This document shows positions 39,165-45,820 of a stretch of 64,000 bases of DNA, piece by piece; positions within the stretch are counted from its first letter, which is position 1; every line of letters begins with the position of its first letter. The stretch comes from Halorhabdus sp. CBA1104 (GTDB lineage: Archaea > Halobacteriota > Halobacteria > Halobacteriales > Haloarculaceae). The notes beneath the pieces are model-generated. The model ran no database searches and was not told where the DNA came from. It saw only the letters and a program-made list of their open reading frames with translations. The stretch covers positions 186,001-250,000 of the forward strand of contig NZ_CP033878.1 in assembly GCF_009690625.1 (NCBI RefSeq). The letters run 5' to 3'. A program made the position numbers and the translations under genes.

Positions 39165-39851
39165 TCAGGACAGCGCAAACGGCTGCCAGCCGCTGGGTTG
39201 CTCGGGCAGTCCGCGAACACGCACTTCTCCGTCGATGCCGTCCTCCTCACCCTCGTATTCTCGCACTTCGATCCGGCCGTCGGTAACCTGGCCGAGGGTG
39301 TTGACGGTGCGTTCGTCGTGGGTCGTCGGGTCGATCGCGAAGACGCCGAGGCCGCCCGCGCTGTCGATACGCCCCGAGAGGGTCTGGGCGAACCGGAACA
39401 GTTTCCGCAGGTCGACGTACATGGCGAGCGACGAGAGGCTGATGAGTCCTGTTCGGACGCGCCCGTCGGCGGCGTCGGCGTACAGCGATTCGTACAGTGC
39501 GGAGAACTTCATCCCGATCCCGGTCAGGTCGCTCTGGGTCGAGACGTATTTGAGCGCAGCGTCGGTCTCGTTTGGCTTTGGCTCCTGGCCACTACAGTCG
39601 ATGATACCCATCAGCGAGGTGTCCAGGGCCGGGTCTGTCCGTCGACACGCCGTGAGGAGCTTCTCGCTGGTCTTGTTCGTCGAGATAAACAGCGACGCCT
39701 CGTCGTCCTCGGCCGCCTGCAAGACGAGCGATCTGACGAGTGACTCGGCCGGGCTGAGTGCTGGCCCCGCAACGAGCACCGTCGAGCCCGGGTCGATCGG
39801 CTCGATGGGCAACTGCTCGCCGAACCCGTAGCCGTCGGGATCGCCACTCAT
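39165..39851 (-). CDS. RecA/KaiC-like protein with degenerate P-loop
   Basis: 228 residues from ATG 39851, which overlaps the stop of the receiver-GAF gene. It has the layout of small haloarchaeal RecA-superfamily proteins associated with signalling: GSTVLVAGPALSPAESLVRS replaces Walker A (no GK[ST]), then ASLFISTNKTSEKLL and a Walker-B-like strand GLISLSSLAMYVDL. No ATP hydrolysis is expected. It ends the leftward cluster 39165-45790. By position it may act as an adaptor or output for the receiver and kinases; unproven. Confidence 0.7.
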   Translation of the reverse strand: MSGDPDGYGFGEQLPIEPIDPGSTVLVAGPALSPAESLVRSLVLQAAEDDEASLFISTNKTSEKLLTACRRTDPALDTSLMGIIDCSGQEPKPNETDAALKYVSTQSDLTGIGMKFSALYESLYADAADGRVRTGLISLSSLAMYVDLRKLFRFAQTLSGRIDSAGGLGVFAIDPTTHDERTVNTLGQVTDGRIEVREYEGEEDGIDGEVRVRGLPEQPSGWQPFALS

Positions 39852-40765
39852 CGGTCCACCTCCGCGGGATCCTCGGCCGCATCGAGTCGAGCGTGACACT
39901 CGATCAGGTCCATCGCTAGGGTTGCCAACTCCGTGAGATACGCCTCGTCGGCCGCGGTGAACGATCGGGGTTCGTCGTCGTAGACACACAGTGGGCCGAT
40001 GACGAGGCCACGTTTCGTGACGAGATTTGCACCCATGTACGCCCGGATGCCGAGGTCGACCAGCGCGTCCGCTCGGGACTGGAATCGGGGATCTTCGGTC
40101 ACGTCTTCGACGGTCATCACGCCGTCGTCTTCGAGGATCGTGAACGTACAGATCGAGTCTTCCCGATCCATCCGCTCCCACTCGGCGGCGTCCCCGTAAC
40201 ACGCCAGAAACTCCTGGCTGTGTTCGGTGATGAGGTTGATCGAAGCCTGCTCGACCTCGAAGTGGGTGGCCGCCAGGTCGGTGATTCGATCGAGCGCTTC
40301 GATGAGTGCCTCGTTCTCCAGATCGTAGGATCGAAGGGCTGCAAGGCGATCGGCCTCGTTCTGTGGCACAGGATAGGATCCCTGGGGCCTGGATGCGATC
40401 GTCGTCCGCACCAGATCCGCCAGGCGCTCGCTCCCAAAGACCGATCCTTTCCCGACGTACTCGGTGATCGTCCCCCGGAGTGCCGTCGTGTCGAGGGTCC
40501 CCGGATCGGTTTCGGTATAGAGGACCGTCCCGGCGTCGGGACAGATATCTCCAGCCGCGGTGACGATATCGAAGCCCGTCCCGTCGGGCAGCTCGTACTC
40601 GGTGACGATCGCGTCGGTGTCCGTCCCGAGAGCAGCCTCGGCGTCGGCCACCGTCCCGACCCCTTCGATGCCAACTTCGAGGTCGGTCAGTGCCGACCGG
40701 AGGGTGTCGACGGTCTCCGCCCGGGCGTCCGTGTCGCCGTCCACACAGAGGATCCGATGTGGCAT
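39848..40765 (-). CDS. Receiver-like domain plus GAF domain protein, Glu at phosphosite
   Basis: 305 residues. Residues 1-120 are a response-regulator receiver fold: acidic pair at D9/D11, and strand DAIVTEYELPDGTGFD where E56 stands in the place of the phospho-Asp (compare IVSDHDLPDTDG in the LOV kinase). Residues about 140-290 are a GAF domain (ILEDDGVMTVEDVTEDPRF, VIGPLCVYDDEPRSF). A Glu may lock the receiver in an active-like state. The gene overlaps the next one by ATGA and lies about 100 bases after the LOV kinase gene on the same strand. Confidence 0.8.
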   Translation of the reverse strand: MPHRILCVDGDTDARAETVDTLRSALTDLEVGIEGVGTVADAEAALGTDTDAIVTEYELPDGTGFDIVTAAGDICPDAGTVLYTETDPGTLDTTALRGTITEYVGKGSVFGSERLADLVRTTIASRPQGSYPVPQNEADRLAALRSYDLENEALIEALDRITDLAATHFEVEQASINLITEHSQEFLACYGDAAEWERMDREDSICTFTILEDDGVMTVEDVTEDPRFQSRADALVDLGIRAYMGANLVTKRGLVIGPLCVYDDEPRSFTAADEAYLTELATLAMDLIECHARLDAAEDPAEVDR

Positions 40766-40870
40766 TGGCTACACTGTCGACGCCGTGGGGCATGTACCTA
40801 CTGGCCTGGCTATCAGCGGCGAAAACGGAATGGCCCGCTCGTCTCCCGGTCGGACCGCTCGATCGACCTG

Positions 40871-43075
40871 TCAGTTCGACTCGATCGTCGTTCCCACCTG
40901 TGTCTCATCGATGGATGGGTTCCTCCGGGGGATGACGAGCGTGACGACGCTCCCTCGCGGGTCGTTCTCCGCAAAGCGCACTGTCCCGCCGGCCCGCGTA
41001 CAGATCCGTTTGACGAGCCACAGCCCCATCCCCGCGCTATGACGTAGCGGCTCGACCGGACTGTCGTCGCGGATCACTTGCCGTTCCTCGGCCGGGATGC
41101 CGGGGCCACGATCCGCCACCGTGACTTCGACCGTCTCGGGTCCTCTCTCGACGGTGACTGTCACTTTGGGCGTCTCGCTTTCGGTGTGGACGATGGCGTT
41201 TTCGATGACTTCCTCGATGGCCTGTTCGATCTCAGCGATCGTCTGGACTGTGACTGACTCCGGTGTCTCGACGGCCACGGTTGCTTCCGGATAGGCCGTT
41301 TCGAGAGTGTCCCGGACTGTCTCGACTATCGTCACGAGGTCGATCGACTGTGGCGTCGAGACGGCCCTCAGCAGTTTGATGATCTCCCGTTCTTTCTCGG
41401 CCTGTTCGAGAATACGCTCGGCCGCCCGCTCGATCGGTTCGGCCTGTTGTTCGATCGTGTCACCTGCCTCTTTGATCATCGATGCCCGGCCGAGGATCGT
41501 GTTCAACTCGTTGCGGATGTTGTGTCGCAACAGCCGATCGAGTGTGGTCAGTTGCTTCTCCCGTTCGACCTGTGCGGTCAGATCCTGGAGCGTGGCGACG
41601 ACGCCCGCGACGCCTCCCGATGGATCCGCGAGCGGGTGATAGCGGACGTTGAACGTCCGGGTGGGTTTATCCGGGACGTCTCGGGTCGTCCGGTACTGGA
41701 CCGATTCACCCGCGAACACCCGTTCGACGTACGGGCGAGCGATCGCGAACGCCTCCTGCCCGATGCCTTCACGGAGGGTTACCTCTCGCACATCGTCCTC
41801 GATGCCGTGGAACTCGCGATAGGCCGGGTTGGCGAAGATGTACTCGTAGTTGGTATCGACGGCCGCGATGCGTTCGTTCGCGCCGTCGATGGCCCGCTTG
41901 TAGTGGGCCAGTTGTTCAGTCCGTTCTTGGAGTTCAGTCACGTCCTGCTGAAAGCCGACGTAGTGGGTGACCTCCCCCGCATCGTTCTCGACTGGGGCGA
42001 CGGTCACACGGTTCCAAAATTGGCTGCCGTCGGCCCGATAATTCCGCAATTCGACGGTAACTGGCTGTTCGCGTTCGATCCCCGCGCGGATCTGGGCGAC
42101 GCGTGCGGGGTCGGTGTTGGGTCCCTGGAGGACCCGGCAGTTGTACCCGAGGATTTGCCCCTCGTTGTAGCCGGTGAGTGCTTGGAAAGCGTCGTTGGCG
42201 TAGATCAGTGGGTTGTCCGGCTCGGTTGCGTCGGCGATGGTGATCCCGATCGGTGCCGCGCTCAGTACGCGGTCTTTCAGTTCCAGGTCCTGCTCGCGTT
42301 GCTCGCGGTCGCTGACGTCCCGAACGACGAGAACGGTCGCCGGCTCGTCGGCCCACCCGAAGTGCGTGGCGGTCACCGCCACGGGCACGGTCGTTCCGTC
42401 CGTCTGCGTGAGGGTCCCGGCGACTCGATCGAGGCTCTGGGACCCGTCTCGGACAGCTTCGAGTCGCTCCTCGAAGTCGTCGACTTCCCGGCTGGACAAC
42501 GCTTGGGAGAGCAATCGGTCCGGGACGGCCGAGCGATCTGGCAGTCCCATGAGTTCGAGCCCGGTTTCGTTGATGAACGCCACCTCTCGATCCCGGACGA
42601 CTGCGATCATGTCGTGGGCAGCATCCAGCAGGGCCGTGGCGTGGATGTCCGTCTCCCGGAACTCCGCGTGGGCTCGGCGGTACGCGACCGCATCCGTGAT
42701 GAGGGCTGCGAGTTGCGCCCACTGGCCACTGTGGTCGTCCTTGATGAGGTATTCGGTCACGTCAGCGGTGATCGCTCGACTCGCGATCCCCTCGCTGCCC
42801 TCGCTCGTAAAGAGGACAAAGGGTAGCGTCGGTGCCTGGGATCGGACGGCTTCCAGAAACGCGATCCCATCAGTGTCTGGCAGGTCGTGATCGCTGACGA
42901 TGCAGTCGATCCCGTTCTCGGCGACGAGCCGATCGATCGCGGCCCCGACCGTCGAAACTGTTTCGACCGCCAGGGCGGCCTGGCTCGGTAGCTGCTTCTG
43001 ACAGGCGTTGGCAAAACTCTCATCGGCCGTGACCACGAGGACGTCGCTCTGTTTTTTCGCCACGGCCGCGCACAT
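40871..43075 (-). CDS. Receiver-PAS-LOV-PAS histidine kinase, putative blue-light sensor
   Basis: 734 residues. Residues 1-125: receiver with D62 in VSDHDLP. About 140-258: PAS. About 265-382: PAS of LOV type, with GYNCRVLQGPNTDP; C313 is the Cys that forms the flavin adduct in LOV photoreceptors, and R314 and Q317 match flavin contacts. FWNRVTV and YVGFQQDVTE complete the LOV pattern. About 390-500: third PAS. H518 in LLRHNIRNEL is the phospho-His; N-box N626; G1 DRGPG (655-659); G2 GMGL. Fully equipped sensor kinase, probably soluble. It should sense blue light through FMN and phosphorylate a receiver, perhaps its own. Alternative: a LOV-like redox sensor. Confidence 0.87.
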   Translation of the reverse strand: MCAAVAKKQSDVLVVTADESFANACQKQLPSQAALAVETVSTVGAAIDRLVAENGIDCIVSDHDLPDTDGIAFLEAVRSQAPTLPFVLFTSEGSEGIASRAITADVTEYLIKDDHSGQWAQLAALITDAVAYRRAHAEFRETDIHATALLDAAHDMIAVVRDREVAFINETGLELMGLPDRSAVPDRLLSQALSSREVDDFEERLEAVRDGSQSLDRVAGTLTQTDGTTVPVAVTATHFGWADEPATVLVVRDVSDREQREQDLELKDRVLSAAPIGITIADATEPDNPLIYANDAFQALTGYNEGQILGYNCRVLQGPNTDPARVAQIRAGIEREQPVTVELRNYRADGSQFWNRVTVAPVENDAGEVTHYVGFQQDVTELQERTEQLAHYKRAIDGANERIAAVDTNYEYIFANPAYREFHGIEDDVREVTLREGIGQEAFAIARPYVERVFAGESVQYRTTRDVPDKPTRTFNVRYHPLADPSGGVAGVVATLQDLTAQVEREKQLTTLDRLLRHNIRNELNTILGRASMIKEAGDTIEQQAEPIERAAERILEQAEKEREIIKLLRAVSTPQSIDLVTIVETVRDTLETAYPEATVAVETPESVTVQTIAEIEQAIEEVIENAIVHTESETPKVTVTVERGPETVEVTVADRGPGIPAEERQVIRDDSPVEPLRHSAGMGLWLVKRICTRAGGTVRFAENDPRGSVVTLVIPRRNPSIDETQVGTTIESN

Positions 43076-43168
43076 ATTCTAGTATTCTCCCGGCAAGACC
43101 CTATAGGTTTGTCTTGCCCTGACGTTCGGCTATCGCTCCGCTCGCGCCGAAATGTCGCCGCCGTCCGT

Positions 43169-44314
43169 TCAGCCCCGCTCGGGAGCCATCGGCAACTCGA
43201 CGACGAACACGGTCCCTCCCTTTGGGCCCGTCGTTCGATCCTCGATCCGGACCTCGCCACCGTAACTCTCGACCAGTCGGTCGACGAGGAACAGTCCCAT
43301 CCCGGTCCCCTCACTGTCCATCCCCGCTTTCCCCTCGCTGAACAGTCGGTCTTGGTGCTCGTCGGGGATCCCAGGCCCGTTGTCCGCAACCACGACGCTG
43401 ACGCGATCGTCGTATTCTTCGACAGTGACCGTGACCGCTGGCTCCGTGGAATCGTTGTGCTGGACGGCATTGTTGACCAGATTGCGAAACACCGAGGAGA
43501 GCATCTCGTTGGTCCGAACGCGTGTCTCCGGACTCGGGGGATCGGGCATCGAAATGTCGGCTCCTGGGTGTGTTTCCTGTCGCTTTTCGAGTTCGTCCGT
43601 GAGAATCCGTTCGAGGGAGACGGCCGATAGATCTGGCGACCCCTCGCCGTGAATCATCTCCGCGATATCGTGCGCACTCGTTGTGAGTTCGACGACGTGA
43701 TTGCCCGCCCGGAGGATCTTCTCGATAGACTCCTGTCCATCGGGCGAAACCATCTCCCCGAGGTTCTCCGTCCAGGCCAAGATGACGTGGACGTCGTTGC
43801 GGATGTCGTGGCGGAGGACCCGGTTCAACACGTCGAGTTGCTCGCGTTGTTGATTTACGGCGACGGACTGGCCGCGCAGCCGGAGCACCGTTGCAATCCG
43901 CTCTGCCAGGCGATCCTTGGAGATTGGCATGTCTATCAGCCCGTCGATCGCCGCCCACAGGTCAGGGTACTCGGTTTCGAGTTGGGTCCGCATCTTGCCG
44001 TGGCTTGCTTCGGGGACGAGCAACAGATACGGCAGGATACTCCCCTCGCTGGCCTGCCGTTCGAGCAGGCTCGCCCGGTGTTCGAACAGCATCTCTTTGT
44101 CGAGTAGGCAACACTCGAAGTCGGCTGTACGGACGTCGGCGTCACGCGAGACGTGTCGATACGCCTCGTGATCGGCTAGCCAGTCTTCGAGTACTCGCCG
44201 ATTTCCCGGACTAGACACGAGTGTCAAGACCGGCGTCCGTTCGGGTGCTCGCTCCTCGCTTGACTCGCTGGGCTGGGCGTGTGCCTCGTTGCCGGTCTCT
44301 TCAGGCTGTGGCAT
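43169..44314 (-). CDS. Histidine kinase with N-terminal receiver-like domain
   Basis: 381 residues. About 28-147: a receiver-like fold (LTLVSSPGNRRVLEDWL) with D72 in CLLDKEML in the phospho-Asp position and a conserved-type MPISKDRL end. H169 is the phospho-His in VLRHDIRNDV; N-box FRNLVNNAVQHND; G1 ADNGPGIPD; G2 GTGMGLFLV. Soluble, no TM segments. It lies between the KaiC-like gene (7 bases upstream of its start) and the LOV kinase gene, all on the same strand, so the three are likely co-transcribed and act together. Confidence 0.88.
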   Translation of the reverse strand: MPQPEETGNEAHAQPSESSEERAPERTPVLTLVSSPGNRRVLEDWLADHEAYRHVSRDADVRTADFECCLLDKEMLFEHRASLLERQASEGSILPYLLLVPEASHGKMRTQLETEYPDLWAAIDGLIDMPISKDRLAERIATVLRLRGQSVAVNQQREQLDVLNRVLRHDIRNDVHVILAWTENLGEMVSPDGQESIEKILRAGNHVVELTTSAHDIAEMIHGEGSPDLSAVSLERILTDELEKRQETHPGADISMPDPPSPETRVRTNEMLSSVFRNLVNNAVQHNDSTEPAVTVTVEEYDDRVSVVVADNGPGIPDEHQDRLFSEGKAGMDSEGTGMGLFLVDRLVESYGGEVRIEDRTTGPKGGTVFVVELPMAPERG

Positions 44315-44321
44315 GGCTGGG

Positions 44322-45790
44322 TCAGTCCTGTTTCGCGTTGGTCTCGTCCGGGACGTCGGCCGTTTCCCAGTCCGGTGTCCCGGTGAGAATGCCGCGCAGC
44401 TGGGGGAGTGGCTCGCCGACGCGGATCCCCTCGGGCGTGATTTCGAGTTCCCGCAGGCTGTGCTCGAAGTCGCTGGTCCGCATCTTCAACGCGCCGATGA
44501 CTTTCCGCAACTCGCCGCGGTACTCGACGTGACGCAGGAAGACGAGGTTGTCCGCGAGGTTGCTCGTCCGTTCCTCGGTGGCCCGAAAGTCCCCCGTGAT
44601 ATTGTGGACCTCGTTGACCAGGATCGTCGAGACGCCGGCTGCCCGCAGGTATCGACCGACCCGCAACAGCGCAGCCGTCGGGTCCTCGAGACCCCGGAGG
44701 TTCTGTTTGAACCCCTGTGTGCCGTCGATCATCACCAACTCGACCCCATCCCTCACGGCTTCTCGAATCAGTTGCTCGAACTCACCGACAGTGTATGCGT
44801 CGGGCTCGATTTCGACGATCGACAGACACCCCTCTTCGAGTACTTTCTTGAGTGGCATGCCGATCGCGTCGGCCCGCTCGCGGATCGTCCGTTCGGCCTC
44901 CTCGAACTGGAAGAGGATGCCTTCGGTTTCTTCGATGGCTGCTCGCGTGAGGAACTGCACCCCGGTCGTCGTCTTGCCCGCACCGGTCGGGCCACTCAGG
45001 ATCGTCACCGTGCCCGTATCGAGCCCGCCACCAAGGAGGCTATCGAGCTCGGGAACGCCCGATGACAACGTCCCGGGTTCGATCGATCGCTCTTGCTCGC
45101 CGGGGACTAGCGTCGGCCAGACCGTCAGTCCCTCGTCGTCGATGCCGTAGTAGTGCTTGCCCCGACGGAACGACGACCCTCGAAACTTCGAAACCTGTAC
45201 CGATCGACTGTCGCCGGTCACTTCGAGTGTGACGACGCTATCGACGAGGAACTGCAGATCCTCGTCTGTGACTGTCTCGCCGGCCTGTGACGTCAACATC
45301 ACCGTCGCCCCGGCGTCTTTGAGATAATCCAGCAGGCCGAGGATTCCCTTCCGAAACTGCCGCTCGTCGGTCGTCAGGTAGCGGAACTCCGTAATCGGGT
45401 CCAGCAGGACCCGGTCCGGTTCGACCTCGTCGACGACGGTTCGAAGCGAGTCGATGAACTCCGGCTGCTCGACTTCGGCGGACTCGAAGACGTCGTACGA
45501 TTCCTGCTCGGCAAACTGTTCGCTGGTCGGCGAGAGGTTGTGAAAGTAAATCCCCTCCGTTTCCAACCCGAACGCCTCGGCCGTCTCCTCGACGTACGCC
45601 TGTGGTTCCCCAGATTGACGTAGAGACTCTGCTCGCCCGCCTCGACGCCCGCCGACAGAAAGTACAGTCCGAAGATCGTCTTGCCGGCCCCCGGCGTCCC
45701 CCTGAGAAGGACGTTTCTCCCAGGAATGAGTCCCCCATCTAGCACACCGTCCATGCCGGCAAGCCCGGTCGTTTTCCGGGTTTTGTTCAT
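44322..45790 (-). pseudogene. Two-domain KaiC-like ATPase, interrupted by a 1-nt frameshift
   Basis: From ATG 45790 the frame gives MNKTRKTTGLAGMDGVLDGG and Walker A GTPGAGKT, reading until YVNLG. There the coding run GGGG lacks one G (plus-strand CCCC 45608-45611); adding it gives EPQAYVEETAEAFGLETEG and joins the remaining 1.2 kb. The restored protein is about 489 residues: CI domain with RVLLDPITEF as Walker B, and CII with GPTGAGKTTTG and VMIDGTQGF. EERTSNLADN aligns by hand with the KaiC phosphosite segment and keeps a Ser but has Asn for the Thr. The second half could be expressed alone from 45566. No kaiA or kaiB is present. Confidence 0.82.
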
Positions 45791-45811: not shown

Positions 45812-45820
45812 GTATAAATA
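45812..45820 (-). promoter_or_regulatory. TATA box of the KaiC-like/kinase cluster
   Basis: On the minus strand the element reads TATTTATAC and ends 22 bases before the ATG at 45790, centre about 26 bases upstream. It gives a leaderless start for the KaiC-like gene and probably for the whole leftward cluster, since the following genes are closely packed. Confidence 0.6.

Follow-up and report, generated by a model that had tools for sequence, protein, structure and literature searches.

A run of five leftward genes in the haloarchaeon Halorhabdus sp. CBA1104 brings a two-domain KaiC ATPase together with two histidine kinases, one of them carrying a LOV domain, and raises the question of whether these genes form one signalling unit or join parts that are conserved separately. 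The window that we analysed is a stretch of 64,000 nucleotides (positions 186,001 to 250,000 of contig NZ_CP033878.1) from a genome assembled as a single contig of 2.63 Mb. The original prediction took the five genes for a light- or redox-responsive timing or taxis unit read from one TATA box.

Organization of the locus

The five genes span window positions 39165–45790 on the reverse strand, with gaps of 7, 93 and 105 bases followed by a 4-base ATGA overlap. In order of transcription their Pfam matches are KaiC, HisKA/HATPase, REC-PAS-HATPase, GAF and DUF7504, and the coordinates, gaps and Pfam matches bear out the predicted gene order, spacing and domain content. The cluster has no classic DNA-binding regulator, and an Rfam search across 37–47 kb of the window returned no match.

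A putative promoter, a TATTTATA box at 45813–45820 (reverse strand), occupies positions −30 to −23 relative to the KaiC start codon. The claim that this is the only such element is not supported, because a second TATA-like site precedes the LOV kinase gene by 30 bases and, in the closest relative (genome G006, a congener), the run is split by a kinase gene on the opposite strand. The second site is flanked by an inverted repeat, GGCAAGAC/GTCTTGCC (43092–43118, reverse strand), that may represent an operator or the LOV kinase's own promoter.

A pseudo-receiver kinase accompanies KaiC across the Halobacteria

The gene directly after kaiC (43169–44314, reverse strand) encodes a histidine kinase, HK1, with HisKA and HATPase_c domains and an N-terminal region of around 140 residues for which Pfam has no model (domain at 43817–44248, reverse strand). 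This N-domain adopts a receiver fold. Among solved structures its best sequence match is a PleD receiver (E 5e-7), and a confident AlphaFold2 model (pLDDT 94.8) matches receiver domains in Foldseek. A SasA/KaiB-like (thioredoxin-like) fold was also considered and was set aside on the same Foldseek result. The receiver-like part of HK1 is thus real, but it lacks catalytic residues: across 49 N-domains the receiver lysine is found in none and the acidic pair in one, with the strand-3 aspartate present in 43. The domain is best called a pseudo-receiver.

Its distribution follows that of KaiC. A histidine kinase is located directly downstream of, and co-directional with, the two-domain KaiC gene at 61 of 80 loci, and is divergently upstream at several more. 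The N-domain occurs in 82 genes of the regions that we fetched, 81 of which were flagged as lying beside a two-domain KaiC; the remaining gene, at locus L155, is by its coordinates divergent to an adjoining KaiC gene, the gene calls there having overlapped. Among the matches listed for 292 genomes of the Halobacteria, 185 genomes have both KaiC and the N-domain, 2 have only KaiC, 10 have only the domain and 95 have neither. The corresponding Fisher value for co-occurrence among the matches listed is 2e-62, which overstates independence because the genomes are related. Outside the family to which the window belongs, 84 of the 90 listed N-domain genes are no more than 3.5 kb from a two-domain KaiC. 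Within the family (43 genomes), a hand count places about 51 of 58 strong N-domain matches next to a two-domain KaiC or its remnant. The other seven, in loci L239, L240, L241, L242, L244, L245 and L246, are kinases with no two-domain KaiC nearby, and the first four of these are LOV kinases.

The pair persists amid differing flanking genes and in both divergent and co-directional layouts, which argues for functional coupling between KaiC and the kinase. The expected link between KaiC and sensor kinases is therefore upheld by both the locus and the genome counts, and is wider than the window: two-domain KaiC and HK1 constitute a class-wide haloarchaeal module in which KaiC is almost always found beside an N-domain kinase.

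LOV kinases recur beside KaiC

The third gene (40871–43075, reverse strand) encodes a REC-PAS-LOV-PAS histidine kinase that keeps the phosphosite aspartate in its receiver and does not contain the KaiC-linked N-domain. Its second PAS domain (41906–42292, reverse strand) is a true LOV domain, as had been proposed: the adduct cysteine lies in an NCRxLQ motif (here NCRVLQG, within YNCRVLQG), and the sequence aligns with solved LOV domains (best PDB match E 4e-35).

LOV kinases beside a two-domain KaiC recur in other genera. In the fetched regions a canonical LOV motif is present in 30 of 83 kinases that flank KaiC, against 2 of 18 other kinases (Fisher p 0.05). Such motifs are rare genome-wide, with 38 in 21 genomes, and by their coordinates about 11 of these have a two-domain KaiC no more than 4 kb away, against an expectation of about 0.1. 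Mapping adjacency to KaiC onto a tree of LOV kinases requires around seven changes, and this adjacency has therefore arisen or disappeared several times. In the tree the window kinase clusters with two LOV kinases located away from KaiC. It is missing from the same locus in G006, and it was recruited separately from the KaiC-HK1 pair. Since adjacency shifts repeatedly and the window kinase lacks the N-domain, we regard LOV input to KaiC modules as frequent rather than universal. In G006 an oppositely oriented gene for a 991-residue REC-PAS kinase (L051:8202-11177) takes the place of the LOV kinase, and this middle slot turns over.

Light may have no general role in these modules. KaiC and its kinase could instead act as a sensor of energy, redox state or oxygen, with the LOV domain serving as a flavin redox sensor or an incidental PAS-type input. 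That 53 of the 83 KaiC-flanking kinases have no canonical LOV motif fits such a reading, as does the annotation of the partner of Haloferax volcanii cirC as fixL, an oxygen sensor (PMC3941300). Against it are the recurrence beside KaiC of a motif that is otherwise rare in genomes, the retention of the LOV adduct cysteine and the effect of light–dark cycles on the H. volcanii cir genes (PMC3941300). We consider a light-free sensor a possibility to be taken seriously, if not a probable one.

The window copy of kaiC is frameshifted

The KaiC gene (44322–45790, reverse strand; assigned from open reading frames, Pfam and alignment to G006) is not a single open reading frame. It is split: the reading frame at 45374–45790 holds the CI Walker A motif, and that at 44322–45566 holds the rest of CI and all of CII. 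Alignment to the intact 489-residue KaiC of G006 shows that a G-run at 45607–45610 is one base shorter in the window, and this single-base frameshift parts the CI Walker A motif from the remainder of the protein. Because the reading frame is broken, the KaiC part may be dead in this strain, or the assembly may be wrong by one base. Downstream of the shift KaiC shows purifying selection (dN/dS 0.10), which indicates that the break is either very recent or an assembly error. A generally poor assembly is an unlikely cause, since kaiC is the only one of 40 genes syntenic with G006 to be split between frames; a single error is still possible.

The frameshift also bears on whether the locus as a whole is decaying, with a non-functional KaiC part and neighbours that are remnants or have been repurposed. 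The split of kaiC alone among 40 syntenic genes would agree with this, as would the state of the locus elsewhere in the genus: G002 has only broken remnants of the REC-GAF and DUF7504 genes (L052:7646-8050), flanked as in the window by the IlvD and GHMP-kinase genes, indicating that the locus decays within the genus, and four other congeners lack any close KaiC. In the window, however, the other four genes are intact, dN/dS is low not only for KaiC after the shift but also for HK1, REC-GAF and DUF7504 (0.15–0.27), and one assembly error in the G-run could account for the break. Such decay with a non-functional KaiC part is, in our judgement, rather unlikely. We describe the locus as a damaged, rearranged example of the partnership between KaiC and a sensor kinase.

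The residues of KaiC that matter for catalysis are well kept. Both Walker A motifs are encoded in the window, on either side of the frameshift, and they are intact in G006 and in 76–78 of 78 aligned KaiCs. The catalytic glutamate pair of CII is present (FEE in the window), with glutamate at the two positions in 77 and 78 of the 78 sequences. The residue aligned to S431 is serine in all 78 and that at the T426 position is threonine or serine, whereas the T432 position is mostly tyrosine, and asparagine in G006 and the window. Judged on these residues, it is plausible that the two-domain KaiC is competent as a kinase; a Ser-Thr cycle in its cyanobacterial form is implausible for haloarchaeal KaiC. 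The S431 and T432 positions correspond to residues 410–411 of the G006 protein, and the invariant serine followed by what is mostly tyrosine may constitute a Ser-Tyr phosphosite pair. The predicted absence of KaiB is confirmed for the genus, in that a search of its 7 genomes with PF07689 gave no match where the Synechococcus elongatus positive control did.

REC-GAF and DUF7504 form a separate pair

The last two genes encode a REC-GAF protein (39848–40765, reverse strand) and a DUF7504 protein (39165–39851, reverse strand), overlapping by the ATGA. Pfam and alignment confirm that the receiver of the former has glutamate at its phosphosite, residue 56. This substitution is usual: among 36 such proteins the position is glutamate in 27, alanine in 8, serine in 1 and aspartate in none. 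DUF7504 is weakly similar in sequence to KaiC, and its fold matches those of KaiC and of archaeal KaiC-like ATPases (E to 3e-10). It has no Walker A motif, as expected of the RecA-like protein without a P-loop that the gene was first thought to encode, and this combination of a KaiC fold with a lost Walker A is that of an inactivated KaiC-like protein (iKaiC). Its position beside REC proteins likewise fits the idea of inactivated KaiC domains set out in PMC5847659. We found no mention of DUF7504 by name in the literature searched.

Of about 40 loci in some 20 genera, nearly all place REC-GAF next to DUF7504. Elsewhere their neighbours are unrelated, and almost every other genome has no two-domain KaiC close to the pair. 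They are, in most genera, a separate pair conserved on its own. An apparent conserved two-gene extension of the pair was discarded, the sequences being PurS- and PurQ-like and thus housekeeping neighbours.

Several loci show other arrangements of these genes. The window genome has a second DUF7504 (L090:7455-8709; G000 1302455-1303709) with a half-kept P-loop, GPAMTGKE, adjoining a HalX-like REC protein that has the phosphosite aspartate. G090 contains a tight operon of REC, KaiC, HK, HalX-like REC and DUF7504 genes (L162:5305-10310), an independent joining of a two-domain KaiC and kinase with DUF7504. In G012 and G011 a single-domain KaiC-like gene is directly 3' of the REC-GAF/DUF7504 pair (L087:6698-7384 and the equivalent position in L088).

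The five genes do not form a conserved unit

The pairwise associations exceed chance by a wide margin; the five genes together are not a conserved set. The neighbourhood comparison did not find the five genes together elsewhere, and so the single unit originally proposed does not stand. In G006, KaiC and HK1 are present and the opposite-strand gene for the 991-residue kinase lies between HK1 and REC-GAF, so that REC-GAF and DUF7504 there need a promoter of their own. The window locus joins three pieces: the KaiC-HK1 pair, the LOV kinase and the REC-GAF/DUF7504 pair. The shared strand, the short gaps, the presence of all but one of the five genes at the G006 locus and the tight operon of G090 speak for one operon of five genes under one promoter. 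Such an operon is nevertheless highly improbable: about 20 genera have REC-GAF/DUF7504 without KaiC, in G006 the run is broken by a kinase gene on the other strand and the LOV gene is not shared at this locus, and a second TATA-like site precedes the LOV kinase.

A model for KaiC as a signalling hub

From domain content, folds, lost active sites, conservation and adjacency we infer a scheme of docking, light input, phosphoryl flow and output. We think it fairly probable that KaiC acts as a state-sensing hub with a dedicated kinase docked on it, that blue light is one frequent input and that the window locus stitches three modules together. The receiver-fold N-domain of HK1 would probably dock on the KaiC ring, and the nucleotide or phosphorylation state of KaiC would set HK1 kinase activity, much as SasA or CikA act on KaiC in cyanobacteria, although neither KaiA nor KaiB would take part. 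In many modules the entry point for blue light would be a LOV domain of the kinase next to KaiC; at the window locus it would be the separately recruited REC-PAS-LOV-PAS kinase next door. REC-GAF and DUF7504 may be an independent adaptor unit, with a receiver predicted to be unable to take phosphate on aspartate and a KaiC-fold partner without a P-loop. As the cluster has no classic DNA-binding regulator, phosphate would pass to other receivers. Several points count against the hub model: the seven N-domain kinases away from KaiC, the lack of the N-domain in the window LOV kinase and its clustering with LOV kinases located elsewhere than beside KaiC, the lack of a LOV motif in over half of the KaiC-flanking kinases, and the relatedness of the genomes compared.

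A bolder and rather doubtful extension is that a KaiC switch lacking both KaiA and KaiB is common to the Halobacteria as a class, with pseudo-receiver kinases taking the part of SasA or CikA and blue light acting directly through LOV domains that have repeatedly been fused or recruited. Such a system could be a light-set state switch or a timer, using serine and, often, tyrosine phosphosites.

For the Synechococcus 7942 clock, no direct photoreceptor input had been detected (PMC5520375); the recurrent LOV link is a candidate for an input of this kind. As to the role of archaeal KaiC, and any archaeal KaiC clock, the near-obligate N-domain kinase offers a specific, testable partner and mechanism.

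Comparison with known systems

Archaeal KaiC ATPases were proposed in 2017 as signalling hubs tied to two-component proteins, according to the passages of PMC5847659 and PMC6393860 that cite the proposal. The locus resembles those hubs in having a KaiC-fold domain without an ATPase site, as PMC5847659 describes for iKaiC; unlike in those accounts, KaiC is nearly always paired with one kinase domain, a pairing not found in the literature searched. That literature, which excluded Makarova et al. 2017, contained no description of the shared kinase N-domain or of a KaiC-LOV link. In haloarchaea of Lake Diamante, architectures combining REC, PAS or GAF with LOV and kinase domains have been reported, and one archaeal LOV domain characterized (PMC12202551); unlike the present analysis, that work does not mention KaiC or genomic context. 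We also weighed H. volcanii DdfA as a functional counterpart and discarded it, since it is a HalOD1 protein.

The likeness to the cyanobacterial system of KaiC, SasA and CikA lies in the two Walker A motifs, the CII glutamate pair, the serine at S431 and the dedicated partner kinase. In cyanobacteria SasA binds KaiC directly and CikA carries a pseudo-receiver (PMC7766417). HK1 has a pseudo-receiver as CikA does, a likeness of fold class, whereas the partner domain of SasA is thioredoxin-like and that of HK1 has a receiver fold. The haloarchaeal system differs further in that the genus lacks KaiB and the T432 position is mostly tyrosine, or asparagine in the window.

A close parallel in layout is H. 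volcanii, where cirC adjoins fixL and cir transcript levels increase in darkness (PMC3941300). As here, a double-Walker KaiC lies beside a haloarchaeal sensor kinase, a juxtaposition already noted for cirC and fixL. We claim no priority for the bare pair; PMC3941300 differs in describing neither a shared kinase domain nor a LOV link. With cirC beside fixL, H. volcanii also provides an available genetic system.
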